Shown in pieces: positions 11,039 to 25,405 of a DNA stretch of 25,421 nt (position 1 is its first letter; the number at the start of each line of letters is the position of its first letter). The DNA is from a virus. The notes below the pieces were generated by a model. That model was given only the letters and a program-made list of their open reading frames with translations, was not told the origin of the DNA and did not search any database. The stretch spans positions 1 to 25,421 of IMG/VR virus record IMGVR_UViG_3300008629_000030, one strand, 5' to 3'. A program made the position numbers and the translations under genes.

Positions 11039-11515
11039 TTATCCCTTATCTCTTACCGCAAGCTTATCTACAGGGGTTACTTTTTCTTTATCAGTATTCC
11101 GAACAATTTGAGCATTCATAAGAGATTTTCCATGACCAGAAGGCATTACATCAATTACCATTGAAATTCCACCTTCAATGTGATCAGAAATTCCATCACC
11201 TTCTTTAAATTCTCCATAAGGATTTTGATCTCTATCTACTTCAAAAGTTCCAGAACCATATGATAATGGAATGGAATAAGATCCTTCACCCCCATCAAGT
11301 GTAGGTGATTCAAAATGATAACCTAATTTTCCCAAACCAGATTCTAGTTTTTCAATACCAACTTGTGGATTTAAATATTCCTGTTCTGCCATCTGTCCAA
11401 TAAGGGAATTTAACGCTTCTATTGCGTGTGACGCTGAAGGAAGTGTATCTTGATCCACCCATTGTCGAGAAAAAGCCCCTGAATGTTCAGAAAGATGTTC
11501 TTTAAATGTTTTCAT
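11039..11515 (-). CDS. Unknown protein with capsid-targeting-like leader
   Basis: The 158-residue protein starts MKTFKEHLSE, matching the T4 internal-protein leader MKTYQEFIAE in length, layout and the final L-x-E cleavage motif (L8-S9-E10). The rest has no recognised domain: a helical part (about 27-65) and a beta-rich part with glycine loops (LDGGEGSYSIPLSYGSGTF, about 74-92). If cleaved by a gp21-type protease it would be a packaged internal head protein, like those of the large cassette at 13383-25405. It is the only leader-bearing gene outside that cassette, and it overlaps the next gene upstream (11512) by ATGA. Confidence 0.75.
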   Translation of the reverse strand: MKTFKEHLSEHSGAFSRQWVDQDTLPSASHAIEALNSLIGQMAEQEYLNPQVGIEKLESGLGKLGYHFESPTLDGGEGSYSIPLSYGSGTFEVDRDQNPYGEFKEGDGISDHIEGGISMVIDVMPSGHGKSLMNAQIVRNTDKEKVTPVDKLAVRDKG

Positions 11516-12759: not shown

Positions 12760-13350
12760 TTATGCTACGACTGTGATTGTACCACAAGCAGTACCTTGAG
12801 CTGAACTAATTGCAAGTTCTGCATTTTGTGGTGTATCACTTGTATCTTTAATTGTTGAACTACTTGCCAACACAATACTTTGAGCTGCAACTGACAATAC
12901 ATCTCCTGCACTAGTTGCAGCGTTTGCAGCTGCAATTACAAGAGTAAATGTCAATTCATGTGTACCAGTACCCGATGCGTATGTAAGGGTGTGGTTTGCA
13001 CGATTATCGTTAGTAACTACTAAAGTAGGATTACTAACTGCAACATTGACAATTTCGTTATATCTGACTGTTACACTAAGTGTACCACCAGCAGACTTAT
13101 CAAATGTAGTTATATTCCAATCAACTGTATTGATTGTGGCCTCTCCAAGACCAGTTGTTCCAGACGCTCCGGCCAATCCACCGATTGCTACAAGTATTTC
13201 TGGATCGGCACTTGTATTTCCATTTCCTGTCATTGCGGATCCGGCTTCCACAACCCAACCACTTTGATTGGCATAGACATCTTTTTGTTGAGCTGTAGTT
13301 AGAAACTTAGGTAGTGCTTCCGACCCCTCAACTGCTCCCCATAAAGGCAT
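12760..13350 (-). CDS. Virion structural protein, beta-rich
   Basis: The 196-residue product starts MPLWGAVEGSEALPKFLTTA, followed by QQKDVYANQSGWVVEAG, an opening I recall from small structural proteins of T4-like marine phages. The rest (about 70-196) is a beta-sandwich-like, Ig-like or bacterial-surface-type domain with alternating strands (LSVTVRYNEIVNVAVSNPTL, HTLTYASGTGTHELTFTLVI). An AAGGAG ribosome site lies 7 nt before the ATG, and a CATAAATA late-like box lies about 30 nt upstream. A decorative or neck/appendage role is likely but not proven. Confidence 0.75.
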   Translation of the reverse strand: MPLWGAVEGSEALPKFLTTAQQKDVYANQSGWVVEAGSAMTGNGNTSADPEILVAIGGLAGASGTTGLGEATINTVDWNITTFDKSAGGTLSVTVRYNEIVNVAVSNPTLVVTNDNRANHTLTYASGTGTHELTFTLVIAAANAATSAGDVLSVAAQSIVLASSSTIKDTSDTPQNAELAISSAQGTACGTITVVA

Positions 13351-13379: not shown

Positions 13380-13387
13380 TATTTATG
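13380..13387 (-). promoter_or_regulatory. Late-like promoter box CATAAATA
   Basis: The minus strand reads CATAAATA, one base off the T4 late core TATAAATA, at the very end of the HAD gene and about 30 nt before the ATG of the structural gene, with an AAGGAG site in between. The placement fits late expression of the structural genes. A single-base deviation in AT-rich DNA keeps confidence moderate. Confidence 0.4.
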
Positions 13388-13916
13388 CAAAACCTAACTT
13401 TTTAAGTTTCGCTATCGTTCCATTTACACTAGTATGGTGTATTCCAATACCACCGTTTGCTTCCCATTCTCCAATATTTTTGGGATGATCATCAACAAGA
13501 ATATTTGGTTGTCTTGTTCTTCCATCTTTTGCAAATCTTTTTTTATCTGATCTCATGACCAGATTTACTCTATCTCTAGGTAATTTTCCTACATGGGACT
13601 TTAACCAATCTGCCTTACCCCCAGCAGAATTGGGATCATGTTTAGTCCATGCAGACATAATACTTGGTGCATAGGGTTTTAAGAAATTCCAGAGTTTTTC
13701 TGCACCTGGCATCCACGGCAGGTTTTTCCAAAAATCCTTTATTGCATTAATCTTATCCCATCTTTCAGGTTTCGGTACATCACCTAATTTTGCACCATGA
13801 ACTTTATATGCACCTTTCTCTAAATCCACTAACACACCATCCATATCCAAATAGACATGAGGCATTTTATGTTCTATTCCCTGCTCATATAAAAAATGTA
13901 TTAGTGTCTTTTTCAT
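13383..13916 (-). CDS. HAD-type phosphatase (5'(3')-nucleotidase-like) with leader
   Basis: Read from the ATG at 13916, which overlaps the upstream stop (ATGA), the product has 177 residues. HAD motif I is VYLDMDGVLVD with D24 and D26; the C-terminal motif is NILVDDHPKNIGEWEANGG with the acidic pair D142-D143. The layout matches small deoxyribonucleotidase-like phosphatases, so nucleotide dephosphorylation is a reasonable guess. The N-terminus MKKTLIHFLYE ends in L-Y-E and resembles the capsid-targeting leaders of its neighbours, one residue longer than the usual ten. A packaged nucleotidase would be unusual. The fold is well supported; the substrate is not. Confidence 0.8.
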   Translation of the reverse strand: MKKTLIHFLYEQGIEHKMPHVYLDMDGVLVDLEKGAYKVHGAKLGDVPKPERWDKINAIKDFWKNLPWMPGAEKLWNFLKPYAPSIMSAWTKHDPNSAGGKADWLKSHVGKLPRDRVNLVMRSDKKRFAKDGRTRQPNILVDDHPKNIGEWEANGGIGIHHTSVNGTIAKLKKLGFA

Positions 13917-14536
13917 ATTCCACATTTGTTTTGTGGTTGTTTTTCTTGCGGATTAATTGCAATTTTATTTTGACTCTTTTTAGTAAGAGTTTTACTTCCT
14001 GAAACTGGTTCTGGATCTTCATTATCTTCTTTTGCAGCCTCAGCCCAAAGATTAACACTTCGTTCTAGAGAAAGAATATTAACATATTTGTGCATATTTG
14101 CAGCTTCTTGTTCCAGTTCTACTTGTTCCCACTTTTTTCTTGCAGCTTTAGAAATATCAATATCATAATCCTGTAATGCATCTTCTACTTCAGAATCGGT
14201 ATAACCATAATTTTTAGATGTAATAGTTTGGACTGCATCTACAAACTTCATTTTTTCACTTTTACTCATAGCTTTAAATGTTGCAGCTGCACGTTTTTCA
14301 TTTCTATCTAAGAGTTTGTATATAATTTTGTCCTCTATCCAATCTTCTTTGATTTTTTTAGTTTCTTTCATAGATTCCCTTTCTCGTTTTTGTCTAGCTA
14401 CTAATGTTATTCTTGCTTTTTTAGCATCTTGAGATGCTTTCAATCTTTCATTAGAATGTTTTGTTGCAAGAGCTTCCTTTTCCTTTGCCTTTTTTTCAGA
14501 CTCCCTTTTCCTTTTTTCAGCGTCTGGATTTGCCAT
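13913..14536 (-). CDS. Highly charged coiled-coil protein
   Basis: The 207-residue product opens with about 70 residues made almost only of K, E, R, A and S (KRKRESEKKAKEKEALATKH from residue 8), which is a long charged helix or coiled coil. The middle has a folded-looking helical part (FKAMSKSEKMKFVDAVQTIT, about 87-106) and the C-terminus is polar. No leader of the capsid-targeting type is present and no family is recognised. Core or scaffold proteins of T4 proheads are similarly charged and helical, so a scaffold or DNA-contact role is possible. It is coupled to both neighbours (TAATG upstream, ATGA downstream). Confidence 0.75.
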   Translation of the reverse strand: MANPDAEKRKRESEKKAKEKEALATKHSNERLKASQDAKKARITLVARQKRERESMKETKKIKEDWIEDKIIYKLLDRNEKRAAATFKAMSKSEKMKFVDAVQTITSKNYGYTDSEVEDALQDYDIDISKAARKKWEQVELEQEAANMHKYVNILSLERSVNLWAEAAKEDNEDPEPVSGSKTLTKKSQNKIAINPQEKQPQNKCGI

Positions 14537-16011
14537 TATCCTTTTTCCTTATTATGTTGTGACCATGCAATTTTAAAAGGTATATCACTATCTGCACCAT
14601 ATTTTTGTTTTAATTTCTTAATCATTTTCTCTTTGCCTGGTGGTGCAACTTCTGGTAATTTTTCATCCATCAAATTTATATATGTAGTTAAAAGTACACT
14701 ATATTTTTGTATTTCTAATGGGTCAATTCCTGCAGCTGCTAATTTATGGAAAATTGCTTTTGCAACATTTGATGGTATTTTAAATTTCGATGCAAACTTT
14801 TTAAGCTTTTCTTTAGATTCTGTTACAGATTCATTTGGTGTTAATTTTTTCCATTTCTTATTAAGTTCTGGTGTTCCTTCTTCATCATCTCTTTCTGGTG
14901 CTAATCTTTTTTCTCTTTGTAGTTTTTCCCATAAATTTCGATTCTTGAGAAAATTCACAGCCTCTGGCAACTTTTTATGTTGTTTTTCCAACGACTGTGC
15001 ATTTTCTAACCAAACCTTATGTAAGGTAAAATCTTCCTCTACAAGTGTAACATAATTTGTTCCACGTTTAACAACCTCTCCTATAACTCCTGTCTTAATA
15101 TCTTTAACCCAATCACCTATGTTATAAATTAAGTTCTGAAAATATTGTTCCCTTACAAACTCATTACTGTTCATCTCTGCAACAGGCTTGAAAGGCTTCA
15201 ACTGTTCTTTGATATTCATAGCAAGACGAATATCTTTGTATAATTTCTTTCCGTCTTTAAATGTATCAGGCATACCTAGTGCAAAAGATTCATAATCTCC
15301 CGATGCGGCCGCAGCCCTCATTTTGGAAGCAGACATTCCAGATGCACCTTCAGCATCTGGATCTCTCTCTCCTGCACTAACTATTTGTATATCTTCATAT
15401 TTATAATATCCATGTTGTGAATCAACTCCATTATACTTATTTAACAATGATTTAAAATCACCAACTCTATCACTTCCAACCACCATTACTAATCTATCAT
15501 ATTTGTCATTCAATTCAACTAATGCATCTAAGACTGTGTGACTATCTTTTATTTCAATCTGTCTTGCTTCTTTTGGAAACATTTTCTTGATATATGTAAT
15601 TTTCTTACTTGCAGAAAGAGGATTCTTTTTGGAATCTTGAGAAATACTTACAAACAAACAAGCATAACCATTTTCTTTTCTAGATGTTTGAATAATCTTT
15701 TGCAGTAATTTTTGATGACCGATTGTTGGTGGATTGAGTCTACCAAATGAAAATACAGCTGTTGATTGTTTTGCTTCTAAAAATTTAGAGAAACTTTCAA
15801 GTTGTTCAAATTGGCCACGTTTATACTTGTCAAATGATATAATATTTCCGTACTTATCCAGTTTAATATCTTTAATACCAAACCTCTTATCCATACTTTT
15901 TCTTCTTTCAACATCAGAAACCATTGGATGAGCCATATTTTTCCAATAATGATTCATCTGATCGACTGCTTGTCTTGTAGTCATTAATCTTTCAGAAACT
16001 TTCTTTTTCAT
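14536..16011 (-). CDS. Nucleotidyltransferase-fold protein with N-terminal extension and extra C-terminal domains
   Basis: The start at 16011 (491 residues) has an AGGA site 4 nt upstream and overlaps the previous stop (ATGA). The cytidylyltransferase/NMNAT-type core spans about 83-265: FSFGRLNPPTIGH (HxGH-like, ending H99), VMVVGSDRVGDF (176-186), and MSASKMR (226-232) as the second nucleotide-binding motif. An SH3-like segment follows (YNIGDWVKDIKTGVIGEVVK, 296-315) and a helical end. Such proteins are known from T4-like marine phages without a defined substrate. The first 70 residues (MKKKVSERLMTTRQAVDQMN) look like a separate small protein, and at the join (72-80) the segment ESFSKFLEA resembles a buried leader. 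It may be a gene fusion. Confidence 0.8.
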   Translation of the reverse strand: MKKKVSERLMTTRQAVDQMNHYWKNMAHPMVSDVERRKSMDKRFGIKDIKLDKYGNIISFDKYKRGQFEQLESFSKFLEAKQSTAVFSFGRLNPPTIGHQKLLQKIIQTSRKENGYACLFVSISQDSKKNPLSASKKITYIKKMFPKEARQIEIKDSHTVLDALVELNDKYDRLVMVVGSDRVGDFKSLLNKYNGVDSQHGYYKYEDIQIVSAGERDPDAEGASGMSASKMRAAAASGDYESFALGMPDTFKDGKKLYKDIRLAMNIKEQLKPFKPVAEMNSNEFVREQYFQNLIYNIGDWVKDIKTGVIGEVVKRGTNYVTLVEEDFTLHKVWLENAQSLEKQHKKLPEAVNFLKNRNLWEKLQREKRLAPERDDEEGTPELNKKWKKLTPNESVTESKEKLKKFASKFKIPSNVAKAIFHKLAAAGIDPLEIQKYSVLLTTYINLMDEKLPEVAPPGKEKMIKKLKQKYGADSDIPFKIAWSQHNKEKG

Positions 16012-16913
16012 TTTCCTATTTCCTTTTGAACAACTTGTCTTGTATATACTTCTAATTCTATAGATGATCCCCAATCTACTATTGGCCAATTTCCGACAGA
16101 AGATACATCATCATGAACAACATATTCATCATCTTCATACGACTTTACTTCAAGAACGTGTATTTTTTTGATTTTGATATTATTGACTAATTGTTCATCC
16201 CATGAATCCTCTGTTTGTCTTTTTGATTTTGCATAACCATAAAATATACTTTCCATTACTTTTTTATGTTTTTTAATAATCTTTTCTACACCATCAAAAT
16301 AGTCTTTTATTACCACTCTTAATATTTTTCCATCACCTTTTAGATGATGTTTCATGTTGCCCCAAATATCAAAATACCTTCCAGAATCTTTTGCAAAATG
16401 TTTTGTTTGTTGTATAGTCTGTGATTTTCCAAATGGAATATGTTTTGTAACAAGTCCCTCTATTAACTTAGATAAATCTCCTTCCACTTTACGAAAATCT
16501 GGGCCCACACCATATCTTTGTGCATTTGCAAACCAAGACATTTCTACCCACCTTCTGCCTTGTTTATCCACTTCGCTCATAATGTCTGAACTTGCAGATA
16601 TGAGAACATCTGCATCCATTTCTACTACAAGACCTCCTTCTGTAGCAATACCTTTTTCCATATATCGTGACATCATTGAAAAAAATGCAGAAATGGTATT
16701 CTTACCACCCTCAAGCTTTTTCAGTCTTTCAAGACCTTTTAAATCAGTTGCATGAAATACTGTTGAACGAATCGTATCAGGCCAAATTCTTTTGAACATT
16801 GGCCCAGAAATGGGAATCTTCAAACTTCCCGATTCTCCACTAGGTACATCAAACACAAGATCTGATGGACTCTGCATAGCAAATTCTCTTAGATATTGTT
16901 TAAATGTTTTCAT
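16008..16913 (-). CDS. ADP-ribosyltransferase-like internal protein, paralog A
   Basis: The start at 16913 gives 301 residues beginning MKTFKQYLRE, a capsid-targeting-like leader with L8-R9-E10; an open frame continues upstream but overlaps the previous gene and breaks this pattern. The body is clearly paralogous to the protein at 23040-23999: IPISGPMFKRIWP, STVFHATDLKGLERL, GGKNTISAFF, VVEMDADVLISASSDI, DKQGRRWVEMS and VIKDYFDGVEK have direct counterparts. The FHATD...GLERL...ISAFF pattern recalls the HxT and strand motifs of ADP-ribosyltransferase or RNA 2'-phosphotransferase folds, but a catalytic glutamate is not assigned. T4 packages an ADP-ribosyltransferase (Alt), which makes the idea attractive. 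Function remains inferred. Confidence 0.75.
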   Translation of the reverse strand: MKTFKQYLREFAMQSPSDLVFDVPSGESGSLKIPISGPMFKRIWPDTIRSTVFHATDLKGLERLKKLEGGKNTISAFFSMMSRYMEKGIATEGGLVVEMDADVLISASSDIMSEVDKQGRRWVEMSWFANAQRYGVGPDFRKVEGDLSKLIEGLVTKHIPFGKSQTIQQTKHFAKDSGRYFDIWGNMKHHLKGDGKILRVVIKDYFDGVEKIIKKHKKVMESIFYGYAKSKRQTEDSWDEQLVNNIKIKKIHVLEVKSYEDDEYVVHDDVSSVGNWPIVDWGSSIELEVYTRQVVQKEIGK

Positions 16914-16914
16914 C

Positions 16915-17130
16915 TTATACATCACCCATTTCTCCACGAGCAGCAATATCCACCGTGTCTTGACTCTTTGCCCACTTTTGAGCCTGTGCTTTGTTCTTAA
17001 ATCCATTAGAAACTGGCATCCATTTGTTGCTCCCCACATGACCCATTACATACCATTTCTTGTCGCTTGGGTTCTTGGCAACAATATACTTGGAATTTAC
17101 TTCTTTTAGATATGTTTTAAAGGTTTTCAT
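16915..17130 (-). CDS. 71-residue protein with capsid-targeting-like leader
   Basis: The protein begins MKTFKTYLKE (L8-K9-E10), the leader shared by this cassette. The remaining 61 residues form a compact beta-alpha unit (YIVAKNPSDKKWYVMGHVGS, 15-34, then FKNKAQAQKWAKSQD) resembling small single-domain proteins with a KWYV...A...A pattern similar to DUF2188-like proteins; the resemblance is loose. After cleavage it would be about 7 kDa and basic. It is coupled to the upstream gene by ATGA (17130-17127), and paralog A starts 1 nt after its stop. Confidence 0.75.
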   Translation of the reverse strand: MKTFKTYLKEVNSKYIVAKNPSDKKWYVMGHVGSNKWMPVSNGFKNKAQAQKWAKSQDTVDIAARGEMGDV

Positions 17131-17528
17131 TCCTTTTCTTTCATTTTTTCTTTTGCTTTTTTAATATTGTCTTTATGTTGTTTTGCTATCTGTTTCTCCT
17201 TTTTCTTCACAAAAGCATTCATCTTTCCACCCTTCATTTTTTGATCAACCTTTTTTTCTAATTTTTCTTTTTGGCCAATACTCATATCAGACAAATCTTT
17301 AGCTTTTCCTGCAAGTTTCTGCATAACAAATTTTCTAACTGCTTTTTGTGCTTTACTATGTAATTTTGCTTTAGACAAAGGTTTTAACTTATTTCTTGCT
17401 TTTTTTACTTGTGTAGATTTTTTCTTGGACAACTGTGCCATTCTACGACCAACTGCTTTGCGTTGGGCCATACTTAAAGCTTCTAATTCCAGCGTGTTCT
17501 CACGGAACTCTCTAAATGTTATTTTCAT
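17127..17528 (-). CDS. Very basic, lysine-rich protein with leader-like start
   Basis: Of 133 residues, about a third are K or R, spread along predicted helices (KKKSTQVKKARNKLKPLSKA, about 35-54; KKKEKQIAKQHKDNIKKAKE near the end). It has the segment LEALSMAQRKAVGRRMAQL (15-33), which recalls basic prohead or head proteins of T4-like phages. The N-terminus MKITFREFRE has the glutamate at position 10 like the leaders, but with F8 instead of L/I. Histone-like charge suggests it is packed with DNA in the head, as the T4 internal proteins are. It is coupled to both neighbours by ATGA. Confidence 0.75.
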   Translation of the reverse strand: MKITFREFRENTLELEALSMAQRKAVGRRMAQLSKKKSTQVKKARNKLKPLSKAKLHSKAQKAVRKFVMQKLAGKAKDLSDMSIGQKEKLEKKVDQKMKGGKMNAFVKKKEKQIAKQHKDNIKKAKEKMKEKE

Positions 17529-17782
17529 GTGCCCTTGTCTTTTTTATGAGGAAGTCTACTTTTTTCAGCTCTTCCTCTGTTTTTAGATTGATCTTCAAAT
17601 CCAACAATCTTCCCACCCTTATGAGAAGCATCTTTTTTGTCTCCATTCCCATAAGTTCCTTTATCCCGATTATATTTCACTAATTCTGCACGATACTTAA
17701 TCCTTTCAGGTGAGGATTGAAACTTCTTGTACTCCGCTTTATAGTTTCTAATATATTCTAAGATGTCTTTATATGTTTTCAT
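17525..17782 (-). CDS. 85-residue basic protein with leader-like start
   Basis: The product starts MKTYKDILEY, where I7-L8-E9 could be a gp21-type site one residue earlier than usual. The remainder is basic and polar with a conserved-looking stretch (YRAELVKYNRDKGTYGNGDK, 50% charged, about 30-49), then DASHKGGKIVGFEDQSKNRG. I recall similar short proteins in T4-like phages with a GTYGNGDxxDxSH pattern, without a function. The D-x-S-H and N-R-G motifs might suggest a small nuclease-like or metal site, but this is weak. It is coupled to both neighbours by ATGA. Confidence 0.75.
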   Translation of the reverse strand: MKTYKDILEYIRNYKAEYKKFQSSPERIKYRAELVKYNRDKGTYGNGDKKDASHKGGKIVGFEDQSKNRGRAEKSRLPHKKDKGT

Positions 17783-17946
17783 TTAAGAACCTTTCCTAAA
17801 TTTTTATAAAGGCCATCTACTGTTCTTTGATCATTTCTTTTAAGTGCCTTAATCATATCTTTTGTAATATCTTGTATATGGACAATTAAATTTTGAATAT
17901 CAGCTTCATCAAGATCTTTTGTTTTAAGTTCTTTAAATGTTTTCAT
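17779..17946 (-). CDS. 55-residue protein with capsid-targeting-like leader
   Basis: A short frame from the ATG at 17946 to TGA at 17781-17779 encodes 55 residues, starting MKTFKELKTKDLDE with L12-D13-E14 followed by A as a possible gp21 cleavage site. The rest is one amphipathic helical stretch (IQDITKDMIKALKRNDQRTV, 24-43). It is linked to both neighbours by exact ATGA overlaps (17946-17943 and 17782-17779), which is strong evidence that this small gene is real. No family is recognised. After cleavage it would be about 41 residues. Confidence 0.85.
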   Translation of the reverse strand: MKTFKELKTKDLDEADIQNLIVHIQDITKDMIKALKRNDQRTVDGLYKNLGKVLK

Positions 17947-18242
17947 GCCAATACACCTTTATGATCTCTTTTTGTAAGTCCAAGTTTTTTATGAAGTACC
18001 TTAGTCTTAGTTCCCCATGAATCATCACCATAAACTCCAGGCGGTGTCATTGTTGGGGTCTTTCCCTTCTTATGCATCTTCATCCAAAGATCATTATATC
18101 GGTCTTGTTCTTTTTTAGACCAACCACCTCTACCGGCAGCTTTCAAGCCAAGTTTTTTGAGTTCTTCATAATCTGGATCTTCTTTTTCTTTTTTGTCGAA
18201 CCAACCTTCTCTAAGTTCGGCAAAAGTTTTATATGTTTTCAT
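17943..18242 (-). CDS. 99-residue protein with capsid-targeting-like leader
   Basis: The protein begins MKTYKTFAELRE, with L10-R11-E12 as a possible cleavage site, followed by GWFDKKEKEDPDY. The remainder is basic, with a tryptophan-rich part (GRGGWSKKEQDRYNDLWMKM, about 37-56) and a short C-terminal helix (TKTKVLHKKLGLTKRD). I do not recognise it. The ATG at 18242 overlaps the RimK-type gene's stop (ATGA), and its own stop overlaps the 55-residue gene's start. By leader and context it is a candidate internal head protein. Confidence 0.75.
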   Translation of the reverse strand: MKTYKTFAELREGWFDKKEKEDPDYEELKKLGLKAAGRGGWSKKEQDRYNDLWMKMHKKGKTPTMTPPGVYGDDSWGTKTKVLHKKLGLTKRDHKGVLA

Positions 18243-19672
18243 TTTATTTCTCTACTAAATTTAGTTGTTATTACATATTTTCTCTGTGGATTAACCATCA
18301 CATTCAATAATTTCATTGTTTTTCTATTTAATAATACATCAGAATTTAACTCATCTCTATTATCTAAACCAAACTTAATTTTGCCATAATTAGTTCCAGC
18401 AAATTCAAATTCAAGTTCGACTATAGATCTTTTATCTCTACCTCCACCAGTTATAGAAACATAATCACCGAGCAATTTCGTTGTTATTGTTTTATCACCA
18501 TGTGTAAATGTAATTTCTTTTCCATTTATTTTTATATCTTCTGCATGAATAACAGAGTATTTAGAATTACCAGTATCAAATTTTCCAATTAAGTCTCCAA
18601 ATGGTTTTACATTGACAACTTCTAGATAACCACATTGATATGGAATAGAATATCTATGCTTTGGTTCAGAAAAATATTCAATAACTTCTTTAACAACATT
18701 CTTTCCTGTAGCCTTTTCAATTCCTGTTGTACCAGGCGAATGATTTACCTCTAAAATATATGGAGGTATTGTTTTTGGTTTTTCTGAAGGTATAAAATCA
18801 ACAGCAGTCCAAGAACCATCAATCGCTTTTGCAGCTAACAAACTTTGTTCTATTTCTAATTCTGTTAAAGAATATTCTTCAGCTTTTGCTCCTTGAGAAA
18901 CATTAGATCTAAAATCTCCTTCAATCACTTCTCGTTTCATGGCAGCAATAATTTTACCACCCAAAACAATAACTCGTACATCACCATCAGTTTTAATATA
19001 TTCTTGTACTAATAAATCTATATCTTCATTTTGATGTGATAATAGTTGAACTAAAGATTCTATCTGTCGCTCCGATTCAACAAATATAACACCAACACCC
19101 TTTGAACCTTCCAATGTTTTCATTATAATTGGAAATTCACTATCCAATTTTTCTACAGCGGTTTTCCAAAGTTTTCCATCTGGAATGAGTTCTGTCTTTG
19201 GTTGTGTCAGGCCATAATCTTGTAATTTCAAATAACTTCTATATTTGTCAGATGATAATTCAACTGTTTCTCTACTATTAACCATACAGATACCTATTTT
19301 CTCTAATCGAGAAAGTAAGTCCAACCAACTCTTTTTTAATCGTACTGTGCCACGAACAACAGCAATAGTATTTTTAGAACTTATTTCAAATCCATCTTTA
19401 TCATCATGATTAAATATTTTATATACTCCATCTTCATAAGAAATATAAGAATTCTCAACTTGTAAAATATAAACTTCATGATTTAATTTTTCCGATTCTT
19501 CCTTAAACCTTCTAGCAGTATGGAATATCGGTGGTTCTCCTTCTTTTTTTGCTAAAATCCTTTGTGCAGCCTCTGAAGATCTTAAAGCTCCAGAAGAAAC
19601 AATTAATATGCGTAACTTATCTTGTTTCTTTTCTTCAGGCCCTTCACTTATAAATGATGCAAGAGATTTCAT
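18239..19672 (-). CDS. RimK-type ATP-grasp ligase fused to a retropepsin-like (RimB/PF05618-type) domain
   Basis: The 477-residue protein starts MKSLASFISE (I8-S9-E10), the cassette leader. An ATP-grasp core follows: PIIMKTLEGSKGVGVIFVES (181-200), VQEYIKTDGDVRVIVLGGK (222-240), GDFRSNVSQGAKAEE (252-266) and the metal-binding end YILEVNHSPGTTGIEKATG (305-323). This matches RimK, which adds glutamates to proteins such as ribosomal S6. After about residue 345 comes a second domain with IGKFDTGNSKYSVIHAEDI (362-380), R415, and NRKTMKLLNVMV, the pattern of retropepsin-like 'ATP-dependent zinc protease' domains that partner RimK. Ligase and protease on one packaged chain is unusual. Target and activity are inferred. 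Confidence 0.85.
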   Translation of the reverse strand: MKSLASFISEGPEEKKQDKLRILIVSSGALRSSEAAQRILAKKEGEPPIFHTARRFKEESEKLNHEVYILQVENSYISYEDGVYKIFNHDDKDGFEISSKNTIAVVRGTVRLKKSWLDLLSRLEKIGICMVNSRETVELSSDKYRSYLKLQDYGLTQPKTELIPDGKLWKTAVEKLDSEFPIIMKTLEGSKGVGVIFVESERQIESLVQLLSHQNEDIDLLVQEYIKTDGDVRVIVLGGKIIAAMKREVIEGDFRSNVSQGAKAEEYSLTELEIEQSLLAAKAIDGSWTAVDFIPSEKPKTIPPYILEVNHSPGTTGIEKATGKNVVKEVIEYFSEPKHRYSIPYQCGYLEVVNVKPFGDLIGKFDTGNSKYSVIHAEDIKINGKEITFTHGDKTITTKLLGDYVSITGGGRDKRSIVELEFEFAGTNYGKIKFGLDNRDELNSDVLLNRKTMKLLNVMVNPQRKYVITTKFSREIK

Positions 19673-19678
19673 CGTACC

Positions 19679-20914
19679 TTATTTCGACATTAGGTTTCTT
19701 ACATGGGAAAGCAATTTACTTATTGACTCATCTTCAAAGACTATCTGTGAACCAAGAATTCTCTTTGCATCAGCAGGCTTTTTCATTTGTTTAGCTATTA
19801 TCTTTTCCACTTTTTTCTCATCCCTTTTAGAAATAACTAATTTTCCACCCTTTGTACCTTTAATTTTTATCTTTGCATCATCAAAGGCCATTTTTAATTG
19901 CAAAGCTGCACTTTCAGTTACTTTTTTTTTTTCCATTTTCAATCGGCGTTTTCCCATTTCACCACAAGCTGCATCTGTCTCTTTTTGAGTAGATGCACCT
20001 TTCATTTTGGATTTAAGGTCTTTATCAGAAAGATCTCCAATACCTTCTTTTTGTTCTTCATGATCACCCTTCCAATTTTTATCAATATAGTCATAAAACT
20101 TTTTCTTGGCTTCATCATCTTTAAGATCGGCAGGACTTTTTATCTTGAATTTTTTAAGAGCATTATTAAAAAACTTTTGATAAGCTTCTTTATCTCCCGA
20201 TTCTGCTTCACCTAATAATACTTTACGAACAGTATCTACTAATTTTTCCTTTTTCATTTTTTCTTCTCCTATTGAGTTGTATAAATCTAATCCCTTAGCG
20301 ATTTTTCCAAAGATACTTTTCTTTTTCTTAATCATTTCAGGGGAACATTTCTTATCGTAAACTTTTTGCATAGATTTGGATCTTAAATCTGCTCTATCTA
20401 AACTACAAATATCACCAGTTTCAGCAATGAGTTTTTCATCATGCTGTACTCGCAATAATTGGTTTTTATCATAATCTTCTGCAAATCCTTCTTTCCATTT
20501 TATGTTACCTTTTAAAATTTCCTTTGAGACTTCAATTTCTGTAGCTCCAGCAGATTTTAATTCTTTTGCTTTTTTGTCTGCTTTTTGTTGAGTCTTAAAA
20601 GGAATTACATATCTCTTACCATCTTTGGCTCTATGTCTAACAGCAAAAATTGCATAAAATTCATCTATCTCAGCTTCTTCACCCTTACCATATCCACCAG
20701 AACCCCAGCGAGATTTCTTTTGACTTTGGGGCACCTTTCCAGATTTTTTCTTTTTCCTCTCATCTTCTCTATCAAGATAAGTTCTGGCTTCCTCTAGTTC
20801 CTCAACATCTCCTATGTCATCATAGTGGTCATGTCCACCTTGAGGTTCGTGGCCTTCATGCCATTCTTTTTCATATTCTTCATATAATTCAATGAATTTT
20901 TTATTGATGTCCAT
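19679..20914 (-). CDS. Charged internal-protein candidate with many gp21-like sites
   Basis: The 411-residue product is rich in K, E and D and has several low-complexity stretches (EDERKKKKSGKVPQSQKKSR, 51-70). (L/I)-x-E motifs occur at L10-Y-E12, L40-E-E42, I83-D-E85, I163-A-E165, I215-G-E217 and L234-G-E236; the last, VLLGEAESG, resembles real T4 prohead cleavage sites with A after E. A more conserved-looking module covers about 238-285 (EAYQKFFNNALKKFKIKSPA). The first residues MDINKKFIELYEE are leader-like but not canonical. An AGGAG site lies 6 nt before the ATG. It may be a scaffold-like or multiply cleaved internal protein. Confidence 0.75.
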   Translation of the reverse strand: MDINKKFIELYEEYEKEWHEGHEPQGGHDHYDDIGDVEELEEARTYLDREDERKKKKSGKVPQSQKKSRWGSGGYGKGEEAEIDEFYAIFAVRHRAKDGKRYVIPFKTQQKADKKAKELKSAGATEIEVSKEILKGNIKWKEGFAEDYDKNQLLRVQHDEKLIAETGDICSLDRADLRSKSMQKVYDKKCSPEMIKKKKSIFGKIAKGLDLYNSIGEEKMKKEKLVDTVRKVLLGEAESGDKEAYQKFFNNALKKFKIKSPADLKDDEAKKKFYDYIDKNWKGDHEEQKEGIGDLSDKDLKSKMKGASTQKETDAACGEMGKRRLKMEKKKVTESAALQLKMAFDDAKIKIKGTKGGKLVISKRDEKKVEKIIAKQMKKPADAKRILGSQIVFEDESISKLLSHVRNLMSK

Positions 20915-20922
20915 TTTGTCTC

Positions 20923-21816
20923 CTATTTCTTAGCCATTGAAAATGCAAAGTCAACTGTTTTCACGAAACCAGCTTTGGTCTTTATCATTTCCTCAAATTT
21001 CTTTTTTGTTGCTGGTTTAAGTGCATCATACACTTGAACCACAGCAGATGCAGAGAAAAGATCAACTCTTATACTTCCCCCATCTTTAAACGCAAATACT
21101 TGATTTTGTTTATCCTTGACTATCTTTTTAAGATTTTCTATTGTTGATGGATATGCAGCTTCTTTCTCAGAAAGTTCAACTTCTTCCATTTGATAACCTA
21201 CTACTGTTCCTTTACTATTAACAACAACATCACGAATATTGAAATGGCTTGCAGTTTTATTTAATCTTGCTCTTAGTGTTCCTTTTTCTTTATCAAAAAA
21301 CTTCTGTATTTCCATTCTGGTTGGGCCTGTGACACCTTCTTCAACTTCTTCATGAGCAGGTTCAATAGCAAGAAGTCCTTGTTTCGATTTGGGAACTTTG
21401 AAATGTTTGATTGCGGCTTGTTTTGCATCATTCAAACTATCTATTTCACCTTTCTTTGGTTTAATTTCCAATTTCTCTTTATTATAAAATGCAATCCATC
21501 CTGCAAATTTTTCATCAATATCAACTTCTTCAAGTATTCCAGAAGGTATAGATTTTCTTATGTATTTAATTATAGATTCTGTAGACTTAACATCACTTAC
21601 TGCTGTAATCTTAATTTTTCTACCTACCCACTTTGCAATTTGTTGACCACCTATACCCATTTTGGTTAATGTGTCTCCATCAGTAGAAACAACTTTTCCT
21701 TCCTTTTCTTTCTTATAATAGAAAGCATCAACTACTGATTTATCTATCGGTTTAAGTGCTTCACCTAAATACACTTCTTCTATTACTTCTGTCCATGATT
21801 TTCTGTATCTTGACAT
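20923..21816 (-). CDS. Internal-protein candidate with conserved C-terminal domain
   Basis: The 297-residue product begins MSRYRKSWTEVIEEVYLGEA, with I12-E-E14 and L17-G-E19-A as possible gp21-type sites, and has further ones at L95-E-E97 and I100-D-E102. Two modules are visible: FAGWIAFYNKEKLEIKPKKG (104-123) with AIKHFKVPKSKQGLLAIEPA, and a C-terminal part (QVFAFKDGGSIRVDLFSASA, about 239-258, then YDALKPATKKKFEEMI) that I recall from T4-like phage proteins without a function. An AAGGAG site lies 6 nt before the ATG. The site pattern suggests the prohead protease cuts it. Confidence 0.75.
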   Translation of the reverse strand: MSRYRKSWTEVIEEVYLGEALKPIDKSVVDAFYYKKEKEGKVVSTDGDTLTKMGIGGQQIAKWVGRKIKITAVSDVKSTESIIKYIRKSIPSGILEEVDIDEKFAGWIAFYNKEKLEIKPKKGEIDSLNDAKQAAIKHFKVPKSKQGLLAIEPAHEEVEEGVTGPTRMEIQKFFDKEKGTLRARLNKTASHFNIRDVVVNSKGTVVGYQMEEVELSEKEAAYPSTIENLKKIVKDKQNQVFAFKDGGSIRVDLFSASAVVQVYDALKPATKKKFEEMIKTKAGFVKTVDFAFSMAKK

Positions 21817-21825
21817 TTTAACTCC

Positions 21826-23043
21826 TTATTTGTCCCAATTTTTTTGTGCTGTAAAATTGTTGAAGGAAAACTCCAACCTATCTACTAATTTAACTGCTTT
21901 TTGAGTACTATCTGCAACGACATATCCTTCTGGTGTTGTAACTTTAAATCCATCTGCTGTCTTGACAAATGTACTCATCCCCAACTGCTTTATGCTGTTT
22001 AGTTTGTCTATAATCTTCATTTTGGCCTTTACAATATGCCCCATGAATTCTGTAACTGCGACCATGTTTCTTGTATGGTTGCGTAATTCCTTGAAATACA
22101 TATCCTTACGTTCCATCCATTCTTTCTTGGTTTTCTCTGTTTTCTTTGTTGCAGTAATTTTTACAAATGCCTCATGTACGAACTTGAAATAATCTGCAAC
22201 TTGTTTCCTACCACCAATAAACTTAGCCTGGTTCTTAATCAAAGAATTTTGATACGTTTTCCATTGTGCAGAGGCTGGTAGTGTGTTTTGTAAGGGACTC
22301 CATTCCCCCATTTTTGTTGAATTTATTTTTCTAAATGTTTTACCAGCCTCTGACAAATCTCCTGTAACCTTTGTTGTTTCTGCAGCTGTCATCTTTGCAC
22401 TTCCAGAAACATCCTTATAACTTGCATCTGTATGCCAAACTGAGGAAACCTTTTTAAGTGGTTGATCTACTCCATACGAAGCAGTCATATCCTCTAAGGT
22501 GTCTCCTGAGTAAGTAGTGTGCCATACGATACCTATCTTTGATTTACTAATCTTTTTTCCTATATCAGAATCTTCTGGAACTGCATACATAATCGTATTC
22601 GGTTGAAAAGTCCAATGATCAGGCACAGCATTCTGTAATGTTGATTGAGTATATAGTAAATCTCCTTGAATCACTCCTTTAATACCTAACTTGGAAAACT
22701 CACTCAATGCAACTTTAAACTTTTCTCCAAGATCTCCTGACAAATCTATATCAGATTCCTTCTTGTAAAGAATCGGATTCTTATTAAATACCGATTTCTT
22801 CGCAACAAAAAACTGACCATCTGAAGGGTCTATTCCTGCAAATATTGCAGGAGCTCCATCCCATTTTGTACTTACATTCACAGGAGTTTTTGCAGATCCA
22901 GCCAACATATCCCTTAGAGACTGTATGAAATTAATTGCGGCCCTTCCACCATTGATACCATCATTCAAAATTTCATCTTCAATGTGTTCTAAGTGTAAGT
23001 TCTTTCCTGCGGCCTCTGTAAGAAATTCCTGAAACCTAATCAT
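21826..23043 (-). CDS. Protein with nucleotidyltransferase/ligase-type motifs and capsid-targeting-like leader
   Basis: The 405-residue protein begins MIRFQEFLTE-A, with L8-T9-E10 before an alanine, the same as a T4 leader site. STKWDGAPAIFAG has K60-W-D-G63, the motif I pattern (KxDG) of covalent nucleotidyltransferases; FFVAKKS (78-84) and GVIQGDLLY (123-131) fit motifs III and IIIa; TPEGYVVA (370-377) fits motif IV with E372-G373, and AVKLVDR (383-389) fits motif V with K385. A long insertion separates IIIa from IV. Similar proteins in T4-like phages carry an unknown-function label (DUF6267, from memory). An injected ligase-like enzyme is the working idea; activity is not proven. Confidence 0.75.
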   Translation of the reverse strand: MIRFQEFLTEAAGKNLHLEHIEDEILNDGINGGRAAINFIQSLRDMLAGSAKTPVNVSTKWDGAPAIFAGIDPSDGQFFVAKKSVFNKNPILYKKESDIDLSGDLGEKFKVALSEFSKLGIKGVIQGDLLYTQSTLQNAVPDHWTFQPNTIMYAVPEDSDIGKKISKSKIGIVWHTTYSGDTLEDMTASYGVDQPLKKVSSVWHTDASYKDVSGSAKMTAAETTKVTGDLSEAGKTFRKINSTKMGEWSPLQNTLPASAQWKTYQNSLIKNQAKFIGGRKQVADYFKFVHEAFVKITATKKTEKTKKEWMERKDMYFKELRNHTRNMVAVTEFMGHIVKAKMKIIDKLNSIKQLGMSTFVKTADGFKVTTPEGYVVADSTQKAVKLVDRLEFSFNNFTAQKNWDK

Positions 23044-23999
23044 AGTTTTATCTTTGCAACTGTTCTATTAATATAATCTACCATATCTCCTACCTCATAA
23101 TATAGTTCAAATGGAAATCCTTCTATATCTTTATCCTTGTTTGCAAAAGTGTACATTCGCTCACCACCTTCACCTTTTTCCAATTCTGCAAAGTCAGGTG
23201 AAAATTCAGGCGATACATGAATCTTTTGAATCTTAAAATTATTCACCACCAATTCATCCCACATTGGTTTATCTCCACTATCTGGATCTGGTTCTTGAAT
23301 TCTTTTCTTAGTATAGGCTGTTAATAGAGTTCCTAATACTTTGGAATGTTTTTTCATAGTCTTTTCCATTCCATCGATATAATCTTTGATGATTAATGAC
23401 TTTTCTTTTCCACCAACCGATTTTCCAAGATACCCCCAAGCCTTATTGATGTTTGGTTCTGGTGTAATATCACTATGATCTACAATAATCTTTATCAACA
23501 TCTTCTCTATATCTTTTTCCATTCCCTTGAGTTTTGCACCACCACCCAAGCCGGGATCTGAATCTGTAGGTTTATTCATAAGTGAACTTAATGTCACCCA
23601 CCTTCTGCCTGTTTTATCTGGTTGACTTGAAATATCATCTTGTGATGCAACAAGAACATCTGCTTCCATCTCTATAACATATCCACCTTCTGATTTAATG
23701 CCTGTTTGTATAACTATATCATCAATATTAAAAAATGCAGAAATAGACCTTTTTCCCCCTTGCATTCCTTTTAGTTTTCCAAGACCATCAAAATCAGTCA
23801 AATGAAATACTGTTGTACGAACTGGTTTGGGCCATATCCTTCTCATTATTGCAGGAGATAATGGAATCTTTATATCTTTTATTCCTGCTCTTGGAAGATC
23901 AAACAACATAGTAGATAAACTTTCAGTCCATGCTGGTTTCCCTGCTATCTTAAAGGGGTCTACTCCTATTTCTAACAAAAAATGTTTAAAGGTTTTCAT
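23040..23999 (-). CDS. ADP-ribosyltransferase-like internal protein, paralog B
   Basis: The 319-residue protein begins MKTFKHFLLE (L8-L9-E10). It is a diverged paralog of the protein at 16008-16913: IPLSPAIMRRIWP, TTVFHLTDFDGLGKL, GGKRSISAFF, YVIEMEADVLVASQDDI, DKTGRRWVTLS and IIKDYIDGMEK align in the same order. The paralogs lie about 6 kb apart with different genes between, which suggests old duplication. The FHLTD...ISAFF pattern again recalls ADP-ribosyltransferase or 2'-phosphotransferase folds, without an assigned catalytic triad. Start and stop overlap both neighbours (TAATG at 23999, ATGA at 23043-23040). Confidence 0.75.
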   Translation of the reverse strand: MKTFKHFLLEIGVDPFKIAGKPAWTESLSTMLFDLPRAGIKDIKIPLSPAIMRRIWPKPVRTTVFHLTDFDGLGKLKGMQGGKRSISAFFNIDDIVIQTGIKSEGGYVIEMEADVLVASQDDISSQPDKTGRRWVTLSSLMNKPTDSDPGLGGGAKLKGMEKDIEKMLIKIIVDHSDITPEPNINKAWGYLGKSVGGKEKSLIIKDYIDGMEKTMKKHSKVLGTLLTAYTKKRIQEPDPDSGDKPMWDELVVNNFKIQKIHVSPEFSPDFAELEKGEGGERMYTFANKDKDIEGFPFELYYEVGDMVDYINRTVAKIKL

Positions 24000-25405
24000 T
24001 ATGATACCTTTACGCCTGGTGTTTCAATATATAAAGATTTCCCTGACCACCCACCAGTTGCTCTAGTTCTTACTGTAATTGGAATATTTACATTATTGCT
24101 TTGAAATTTAAAATTCAATTTAAATGATTGTTTTGTTCCATCATAATCTGTGGATATATTTTGATAAAGTTTTGATTCAGCAGTTAAAATTAATTTTAAT
24201 AAATCATCTGAAGAAACATCTGTAATAGTAGAGCCTGTTGTAGAACCAACTAACAGTTTATATGGACAAGGTGTACCTCCTGTTGCAAAAGTATAAAAAG
24301 AAATTGTTTGTAAAAAATAAGATAAATTATCTGCATTTTCTAAATGTTTTGCAAACAATGTTATAAGATTATTTCTATATGGATAATAAAAATCAGCTCC
24401 AAAAAAATTCAACTCATCTAAATTAAAATCTCTACCCAAATCTCCAAATTCTGCTTTTAAATTAGATTCTGTATAATCAGCATTTTTTACTGCATCTCTA
24501 TTTTGATTTAAAGCTCTAGTTGCATTTATATTAGTAGCAGACACTAATCCAGCGGCATACTCCCAACTATCATCCATTATAGATTGTATTGAACTAAGTT
24601 GATTAGAATCTCCTAATTGTTTATAAAATGCGTTTATATTTGTATTAAATTTTGGTGTTGAATCTTTTCCTGCTGAAGCTTTATTTGAATATCCAATATA
24701 AGTACTATCTGATAATTTTAAAATAATATCAGAAGGATTACTTTTAGGTATGTCGGCTGGTTTATTTCTAGGCACCCAATGATATGATGATACTGAGCTT
24801 CTACCTAAATCTTTCTCTACTTCTCTTGCATTATGCCAACCTATTTGAATATCTCTAATTTGAGACTCATCTTTATCTAATAATCCTCGTAATGTTATAT
24901 AAGTGATAGGTGTAGATTCGGCTTTAACTATTCCAGTATCACCATTTATTTTTTGAATATTGTGTATCCAAGCCTGAGCATCTGACTCTGTTCCTGCTTT
25001 ATCCTTATTATGCTTTAAAAAATATAATGACATAAGTTCATTGATGTCTGATGATGCTGTAGAATTTTTTCTTTGTTTCATTCCAAAATGACCAATAGCA
25101 TCACTTTTTGCAACTCTAATATAATATTCGGTTTCAATATCATCTGCATCAACAACACGAAAATAATAACCAGATCTTCTATTTTGTAGTTTACCAGTTA
25201 ATGGTATTTTTGGTAATCCTGTTTTTGGTATACTTTTAAATTTCCATGGCTGTTTCAAGCCATCAAGTTTTTTATCTTTTTTTAATTGTTTTGTTACTTC
25301 ATCTGTTATAGTCTTAGACATATCATAAAAGGGATTATACACATTTCCCTGCCTGTAATCGGGGGAAACTGTTAATTCACGAATATACTCTTTAAAACCG
25401 AACAT
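23999..25405 (-). CDS. Possible PD-(D/E)XK-like nuclease with capsid-targeting-like leader
   Basis: The 468-residue reading starts MFGFKEYIRE (I8-R9-E10), leader-like. No stop codon precedes the ATG within the remaining 16 nt, and no Shine-Dalgarno is seen, so the gene could begin outside the window; the leader argues for this start. The middle has DINELMSLYFL with E123, then NPSDIILKLSDSTYIGYSNK, where D226 and S240-x-K242 have the spacing of the PD-(D/E)XK core but with Ser in place of the second acidic residue. That makes it a nuclease-like fold candidate, perhaps inactive or variant. The C-terminal 200 residues are beta-rich (KQSFKLNFKFQSNNVNIPIT). Function is uncertain. Confidence 0.65.
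   Translation of the reverse strand: MFGFKEYIRELTVSPDYRQGNVYNPFYDMSKTITDEVTKQLKKDKKLDGLKQPWKFKSIPKTGLPKIPLTGKLQNRRSGYYFRVVDADDIETEYYIRVAKSDAIGHFGMKQRKNSTASSDINELMSLYFLKHNKDKAGTESDAQAWIHNIQKINGDTGIVKAESTPITYITLRGLLDKDESQIRDIQIGWHNAREVEKDLGRSSVSSYHWVPRNKPADIPKSNPSDIILKLSDSTYIGYSNKASAGKDSTPKFNTNINAFYKQLGDSNQLSSIQSIMDDSWEYAAGLVSATNINATRALNQNRDAVKNADYTESNLKAEFGDLGRDFNLDELNFFGADFYYPYRNNLITLFAKHLENADNLSYFLQTISFYTFATGGTPCPYKLLVGSTTGSTITDVSSDDLLKLILTAESKLYQNISTDYDGTKQSFKLNFKFQSNNVNIPITVRTRATGGWSGKSLYIETPGVKVS

Follow-up and report, generated by a model that had tools for sequence, protein, structure and literature searches.

Why should neighbouring viral genes whose products are otherwise unrelated begin with the same ten amino acids? 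The question is raised by IMG/VR record IMGVR_UViG_3300008629_000030, a complete record of 25,421 bases with no larger genome around it (hereafter, the window), in which a minus-strand cassette of about 12 kb encodes a series of proteins that share such a start. We think it very probable that the cassette encodes capsid-targeted internal head proteins of the type known from phage T4, in an unusually large and enzyme-rich set, and that its source is most likely a marine T4-like (Kyanoviridae-type) phage. Systems of this kind are known; the novelty lies in the extent of this one, its enzyme-rich content and its spread across environmental T4-like phages, and in connections with virion enzymes already published and with Acb1.

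We define the strict leader as the ten residues M-x-x-[FYL]-x-x-[FYH]-[LI]-x-E. The pattern was built from mutational data on the T4 internal protein IPIII, with hydrophobic or aromatic residues at positions 4 and 7 for targeting and an aliphatic residue at 8 and glutamate at 10 for processing, as reviewed from amber-suppressor work (PMC9026906). An earlier note on this DNA had quoted leader starts at 25405, 23999, 23043, 19672, 17130 and 16913, all of which are real starts of open reading frames (ORFs) on the minus strand, as is that of a lone member at 11515 (MKTFKEHLSE). The strict leader begins 7 of the 38 window genes, where about 0.03 genes would be expected, and its background within the same proteins is 6 of 7653 internal positions (0.08%). 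Glutamate at position 10, which would complete the predicted [L/I]-x-E cleavage motif, is present in every strict member. The note's statement that the bodies are unrelated apart from one paralogue pair also holds: only the proteins of 16008-16913 and 23040-23999 are related to each other (37.5% identity, E 6e-55). When T4 was scanned, the strict pattern recovered IPII, IPIII and one further match among 229 ORFs and missed IPI and the ADP-ribosyltransferase Alt; it is therefore specific without being sensitive, and genuine variants may exist that it does not catch.

The variant leaders proposed in the earlier note stand as a group and are less certain than the strict ones when taken individually. 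A looser pattern fits 13 of 15 cassette genes and 4 of the 23 other window genes (Fisher P = 3e-5), the pattern having been chosen post hoc and having a background of 7.8% per position. Several variants end in L/I-x-E followed by A (17528, ...LELE/A; 21816, ...YLGE/A; here and below a slash marks the predicted cleavage point), and longer variant leaders are not absurd, since the leader of T4 IPI is itself longer (MKTFKEFTSTTTPVSTITE/A). The note had given MKTYQEFIAE as the start of IPI, which is mistaken, since it is IPII and IPIII that begin so; the slip is harmless. It is conceivable that only the strict leader proteins are capsid-targeted and that the variants, together with the extended cytidylyltransferase of 14536..16011, are ordinary cytoplasmic late proteins, as the high background of the relaxed pattern and the lack of any leader on the gene at 13913-14536 would allow. 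We consider this unlikely, though deserving of real weight, in view of the enrichment of the relaxed pattern in the cassette, the longer leader of IPI and the finding of related cytidylyltransferases in virions (see below). We count at least seven labelled proteins in the window and probably 10-13, most likely including the RimK-type ligase, the DUF6267 protein and the duplicated family, with the cytidylyltransferase and the nucleotidase carrying variant leaders.

To what phage does this region belong? No near match to the window was found among 50,697 phage records, and neither the window nor its paralogue family (23040-23999 and 16008-16913) was found among annotated phages. Its DUF6267 protein is 55% identical to that of Methylophilales phage Melnitz and 40% identical to that of Pelagibacter phage HTVC008M, both Kyanoviridae with T4-type genomes. 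These two share a gene order consisting of a gp41-type helicase, the DUF6267 cassette, S-layer or fibre-like proteins, primase, ribonucleotide reductase and PhoH, and the window is this region on the opposite strand.

An independent sample of 80 loci, selected solely for encoding DUF6267, shows the leader as well. In these loci 83 starts fit M..[FY]..[FYWH][LIVM]; glutamate stands at position 10 in 62 of them and at position 9 in 11, with at most five at each of positions 11 to 16. A search of viral contigs with two DNA patterns derived from the leader, together with other loci, yielded at least 400 distinct leader ORFs, which group by body into 82 clusters, a count that is approximate because some clusters are chance matches. 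An ORF in L373, whose polymerase hits suggest a DNA polymerase fragment, is probably one such match, as is a tail-tube-like protein in L153. An alignment of 84 leader representatives, nearly all mutually unrelated, gives the consensus MKTFKxxLxE, in which the invariance of F4 and E10 was imposed by the search and the preference for K5, and for L over I or V at position 8, was not. Leader genes occur in runs, with at least five consecutive in locus L108 and several each in L161, L166 and L171, and among the clustered bodies are RimK and a cytidylyltransferase, with SAM lyase family, DnaJ-domain, acetyltransferase, methyltransferase and Acb1 proteins found in other phages.

The leader behaves as a module that unrelated genes may acquire or shed. 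DUF6267 proteins carry it in relatives of the window's clade and lack it in 80 of 80 cyanophage-like relatives, which begin directly with the body (MAKNTHLEH); in those same cyanophage-like loci the cytidylyltransferase begins M[RK]F/Y..F[IL].EA in the examples listed (45 of 79). In the RimK family the motif F..[FY][LIV].E is kept in all 31 relatives with a readable start (18 distinct N-termini), and identity outside the leader drops to about 30-60%. Melnitz and Mosig encode RimK proteins with the leader (MTQKFSQFITE and MQVQPFKNYLEE) near their DNA polymerase genes, outside the cassette, so the leader follows the protein and not the locus. A leaderless RimK relative in YerA41 that has been called structural was dropped as evidence, as that particle preparation also contains polymerases and helicases.

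If the leader addresses proteins to the head, they should be found in virions, and published proteomics provides an outside test. For cyanophage S-CREM2, whose virion proteins were identified by mass spectrometry (PMC10665884, Table 3), we compared the N-termini of 196 annotated genes; five proteins carry the strict leader, and four of them were detected, namely a SAM hydrolase (MKDFDSFLEE), gp13 (MKDLHSFLTE), an APH-like kinase (MKRFDAFLTE) and a cytidylyltransferase (MKNFSSFLTE). This enrichment is significant among non-core genes of two regions (Fisher P = 2e-4) and with the tail-gene region added (P = 0.006). In S-SZBM1 (PMC9146016, Table 1) detection was recorded for the cytidylyltransferase (MRFRQFIIE/A) and not for the leaderless DUF6267 protein encoded beside it, and cytidylyltransferase/NMNAT-like proteins have been reported from virions of S-SM1 (PMC3037559) and S-SCSM1 (PMC9602691). 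A virion location is documented for these related proteins and for other leader proteins in cyanophages; for the window's own proteins it is predicted, as is their cleavage. The S-CREM2 paper names neither the leader nor the gp21 mechanism (PMC10665884), and we found the phrase 'capsid targeting sequence' in no marine phage paper; most subscription journals lay outside this search, and priority is unproven.

Two further observations concern the S-CREM2 virion proteins. A Cas9-like protein is among them (PMC10665884; L211 7704-10313, minus strand), with the leader-like LRFASFMAE/A about 25 residues from its start. By eye, a stretch resembling GL.SDGHG.W follows the leader in the Cas9-like protein, the kinase and a cytidylyltransferase (L211 gp12 and gp14; L320:3791-5254); this stretch, which in L320 matches phrog_3561, may be another module that these proteins have in common.

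Does the lineage possess the machinery that such a leader would require? The earlier note had proposed looking for a gp21-type protease; none is encoded in the 25 kb record, and one is present in Melnitz, in HTVC008M and in related DUF6267 contigs. Both phages encode gp21, gp22 and gp23, and LSE/A occurs inside the propeptide of Melnitz gp23. Of 11 related contigs searched, 6 encode Peptidase_S77, among them G004 (145 kb), G005, G007 and G008, which stem from the DUF6267 search, and the protease is present in related contigs with leader-bearing DUF6267. Upstream of the first cassette gene, an TATAAATA box lies about 70-95 bases away in L001, L003, L005, L006, L008, L009 and L017; the counterpart is TATAAATA in Melnitz and CTAAATA in HTVC008M, about 40-50 bases out. 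The box matches the T4 late promoter, which would fit co-expression with the head genes; the window stops short of the site, so the promoter is seen in relatives only. In the same seven loci the stretch from the box to the start codon contains a short inverted repeat that is conserved (GGGAAT...ATTCCC or GGGAAC...GTTCCC) and appears to include a compensatory change; the single locus searched against Rfam gave no match. The dominant leader family (e.g. L091, L107 and L134) has ATAAATA as close as about 12 bases to the start codon; if this motif is the promoter, the transcripts would be nearly leaderless.

The motif [ACT]TAAATA within 60 bases upstream is found at 43% of leader ORFs and 20% of other ORFs of the same loci, the sequences not being independent. 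The leader could therefore merely track late expression, with the shared start reflecting a different property of late-gene N-termini, for instance a translation-start ramp or a start region spread by recombination. This we regard as very improbable: what is conserved is the amino-acid sequence, at precisely the residues mapped in T4, with variation at wobble positions and in the flanking residues; the leader is absent from core structural genes of the genomes concerned; and S-CREM2 virions are enriched in leader proteins. Taken with gp21 and the late promoters in relatives, the same observations support the earlier note's proposal of T4-type capsid targeting.

In the scheme that we favour, residues 4 and 7 would dock the fresh protein onto the scaffold core of the prohead during head assembly, the gp21 protease would cut after [L/I]-x-E to release the mature protein within the head, and the mature protein would be packed with the DNA and delivered into the next host. 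Being short and independent of the body, the leader could serve unrelated genes as a reusable address label. The leader proteins probably travel in the phage particle and reach the host by injection, presumably to act there as effectors.

Several observations weigh against this scheme. The variant leaders are individually weak, and the 207-residue protein of 13913..14536 has no leader at its own start. HTVC008M shares the cassette but without the strict leader. The window is a 25 kb fragment without head genes, and its own gp21 is not among its genes. In S-SZBM1 two proteins with a strict leader, S-SZBM1_191 and _192, were not detected in virions; the S-CREM2 authors warn that abundant non-virion proteins may co-purify (PMC10665884); and no peptide beginning right after the glutamate of the leader was found in the published reports consulted.

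What, then, are the labelled proteins? The cassette and its surroundings encode the following.

23999..25405, minus strand: 468-residue protein, strict leader MFGFKEYIRE/L; matches phrog_2496 (function not assigned).
23040..23999, minus strand: 319-residue protein, strict leader MKTFKHFLLE/I; expanded family, paralogue of 16008-16913.
21826..23043, minus strand: DUF6267 protein, strict leader MIRFQEFLTE/A; Pfam PF19782, E 7e-95.
20923..21816, minus strand: 297-residue protein, long variant leader MSRYRKSWTEVIEEVYLGE/A.
19679..20914, minus strand: 411-residue charged protein, weak variant leader MDINKKFIELYEE, relaxed pattern only.
18239..19672, minus strand: predicted RimK-type alpha-L-glutamate ligase (ATP-grasp), strict leader MKSLASFISE/G.
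17943..18242, minus strand: 99-residue protein, variant leader MKTYKTFAELRE, relaxed pattern.
17779..17946, minus strand: 55-residue protein, variant leader MKTFKELKTKDLDE/A, relaxed pattern.
17525..17782, minus strand: 85-residue basic protein (phrog_6437), variant start MKTYKDILEYIRN.
17127..17528, minus strand: 133-residue very basic protein, variant leader MKITFREFRENTLELE/A; Melnitz counterpart MKKFSELTSELIE/R.
16915..17130, minus strand: 71-residue protein, strict leader MKTFKTYLKE/V, retained in relatives in L166 and L216.
16008..16913, minus strand: 301-residue paralogue of 23040-23999, strict leader MKTFKQYLRE/F.
14536..16011, minus strand: cytidylyltransferase/NMNAT-like protein; phrog_3041, E 6e-65.
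13913..14536, minus strand: 207-residue charged protein, the leaderless one mentioned above.
13383..13916, minus strand: 5'(3')-deoxyribonucleotidase (HAD), leader MKKTLIHFLYE/Q; phrog_2643, E 2e-27; PF06941, E 8e-6.
12760..13350, minus strand: phrog_11617 protein at the cassette end, no leader; likely a virion structural protein, and the positional counterpart of S-SZBM1_136, which was detected by mass spectrometry.
11039..11515, minus strand: 158-residue lone leader protein, MKTFKEHLSE/H, with virion-type genes between it and the cassette.

The leader is retained among relatives of many of these proteins. Orthologues of 23999..25405 begin MLTFKSFIRE and MKTFKEYLRE, the relatives of 23040-23999 all keep F4 and E10, a nucleotidase-like leader ORF in L166 begins MKNFKQYITE, and the positional counterpart of 11039..11515 in Melnitz begins MKNFKNHIAE/E. 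The protein of 20923..21816 likely has counterparts in Melnitz (MTRYNKTMSEALSE) and HTVC008M (MTRYTKTMAEAYREVNE). The earlier note had overlooked the leader-like FSKFLE/A of the cytidylyltransferase, which lies at residues 74-80, after an N-terminal extension and directly before the catalytic domain; shorter relatives begin MKKFSEIIE/A, MKRFTQFVE/A and MRFRQFIIE/A. A similar extension is found in the close relative L001, and L006 and L012 begin directly with the leader. The family of 23040-23999 and 16008-16913 occurs as several neighbouring, mostly leader-bearing copies in L161, L166, L214, L215 and L220, an expansion that suggests rapid diversification. An ADP-ribosyltransferase reading of this family was discarded, as a PDB fold search with an AlphaFold2 model (pLDDT 71.5) gave no match.

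Profile matches to several enzyme families, in the window and among other leader proteins, bear out the enzyme-rich content that the earlier note had claimed. The predicted RimK-type ligase matches TIGR00768 (E 3e-53, 181 bits against a cut-off of 143.4) and PF08443 (E 4e-38), and its RimK-type part is fused to a C-terminal retropepsin-like (RloA3/Zn_protease) domain. In DUF6267 a KWDGAPA motif is invariant and resembles the KxDG lysine motif of ligases and nucleotidyltransferases. An ATP- or NAD-dependent ligase fold, which this motif had suggested, was not borne out: PDB matches to ligase adenylation domains were insignificant (E >= 0.7; model pLDDT 78) and there was no profile match to T4 ligases, so the motif remains a lead only.

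Such bodies also bear on a different role for the cassette, in which the leader does direct the proteins to the prohead, where they help head assembly as core or scaffold helpers or in DNA packing, and do not act in the next host. Several members are indeed small and basic (17127-17528 and 17525-17782), some are conserved across Kyanoviridae, and loss of IPIII in T4 leads to head-assembly defects (PMC9026906). We nevertheless hold this to be improbable, as the bodies include enzymes of host metabolism or counter-defence (the RimK ligase, nucleotidase and cytidylyltransferase here, SAM lyase and Acb1 elsewhere), the content of the cassette differs strongly among close relatives, and in T4 the injected proteins IPI, IPII and IPIII inhibit distinct restriction enzymes (PMC12373910).

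Given these T4 inhibitors, counter-defence is a natural expectation for many proteins that are delivered by the leader, and by analogy the window's own set may have such a role. A notable case lies elsewhere, at L181:8603-9133 (plus strand), which encodes a 176-residue Acb1 (Pfam E 4e-12) that starts MKTFKDYLIE/S, has both HxT motifs intact and aligns with T4 57B and nt-1 gp57B. The genes there read as sheath, tube, portal, gp21 (Peptidase_S77 confirmed), gp22 and gp23, with Acb1 directly downstream. The product of L214:1898-2329 looked by eye like an Acb1-type 2H phosphoesterase and was rejected, its profile match being weak. Whether T4-like phages at large use the leader as a general delivery tag for fast-changing injected enzymes (virion-carried Acb1, SAM lyase, possibly Cas9) that disarm the host before phage gene expression seems to us evenly balanced.

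The practical consequence is that a string of genes annotated as 'hypothetical' in abundant marine phages can be reassigned as encoding predicted injected proteins, recognisable by ten residues of sequence. The leader offers a mechanism for the presence of puzzling enzymes (SAM hydrolase, kinase, cytidylyltransferase) in cyanophage virions, and a simple screen for new counter-defence proteins that would be delivered ahead of phage transcription.

Compared with known systems, the window proteins resemble T4 IPI, IPII and IPIII in leader length, key residues, the L/I-x-E motif, unrelated bodies, multiple genes and the presence of gp21 in the lineage. They differ in being more numerous, many of them 300-480 residues long and enzyme-like, and in forming one probably late operon between helicase and primase, whereas the T4 internal proteins are small inhibitors encoded at two other loci. 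T4 Alt is alike in being a head-packaged enzyme that is N-terminally processed and injected, but its start, MELITELFDE, does not fit the strict leader, and no Alt homologue was found in the window's cassette. Also comparable are the virion enzymes of the cyanophages: S-CREM2, S-SZBM1, S-SCSM1 and S-SM1 carry a cytidylyltransferase related to that of the window, and the SAM hydrolase, kinase, gp13 and cytidylyltransferase of S-CREM2 begin with the same leader as the window's proteins.

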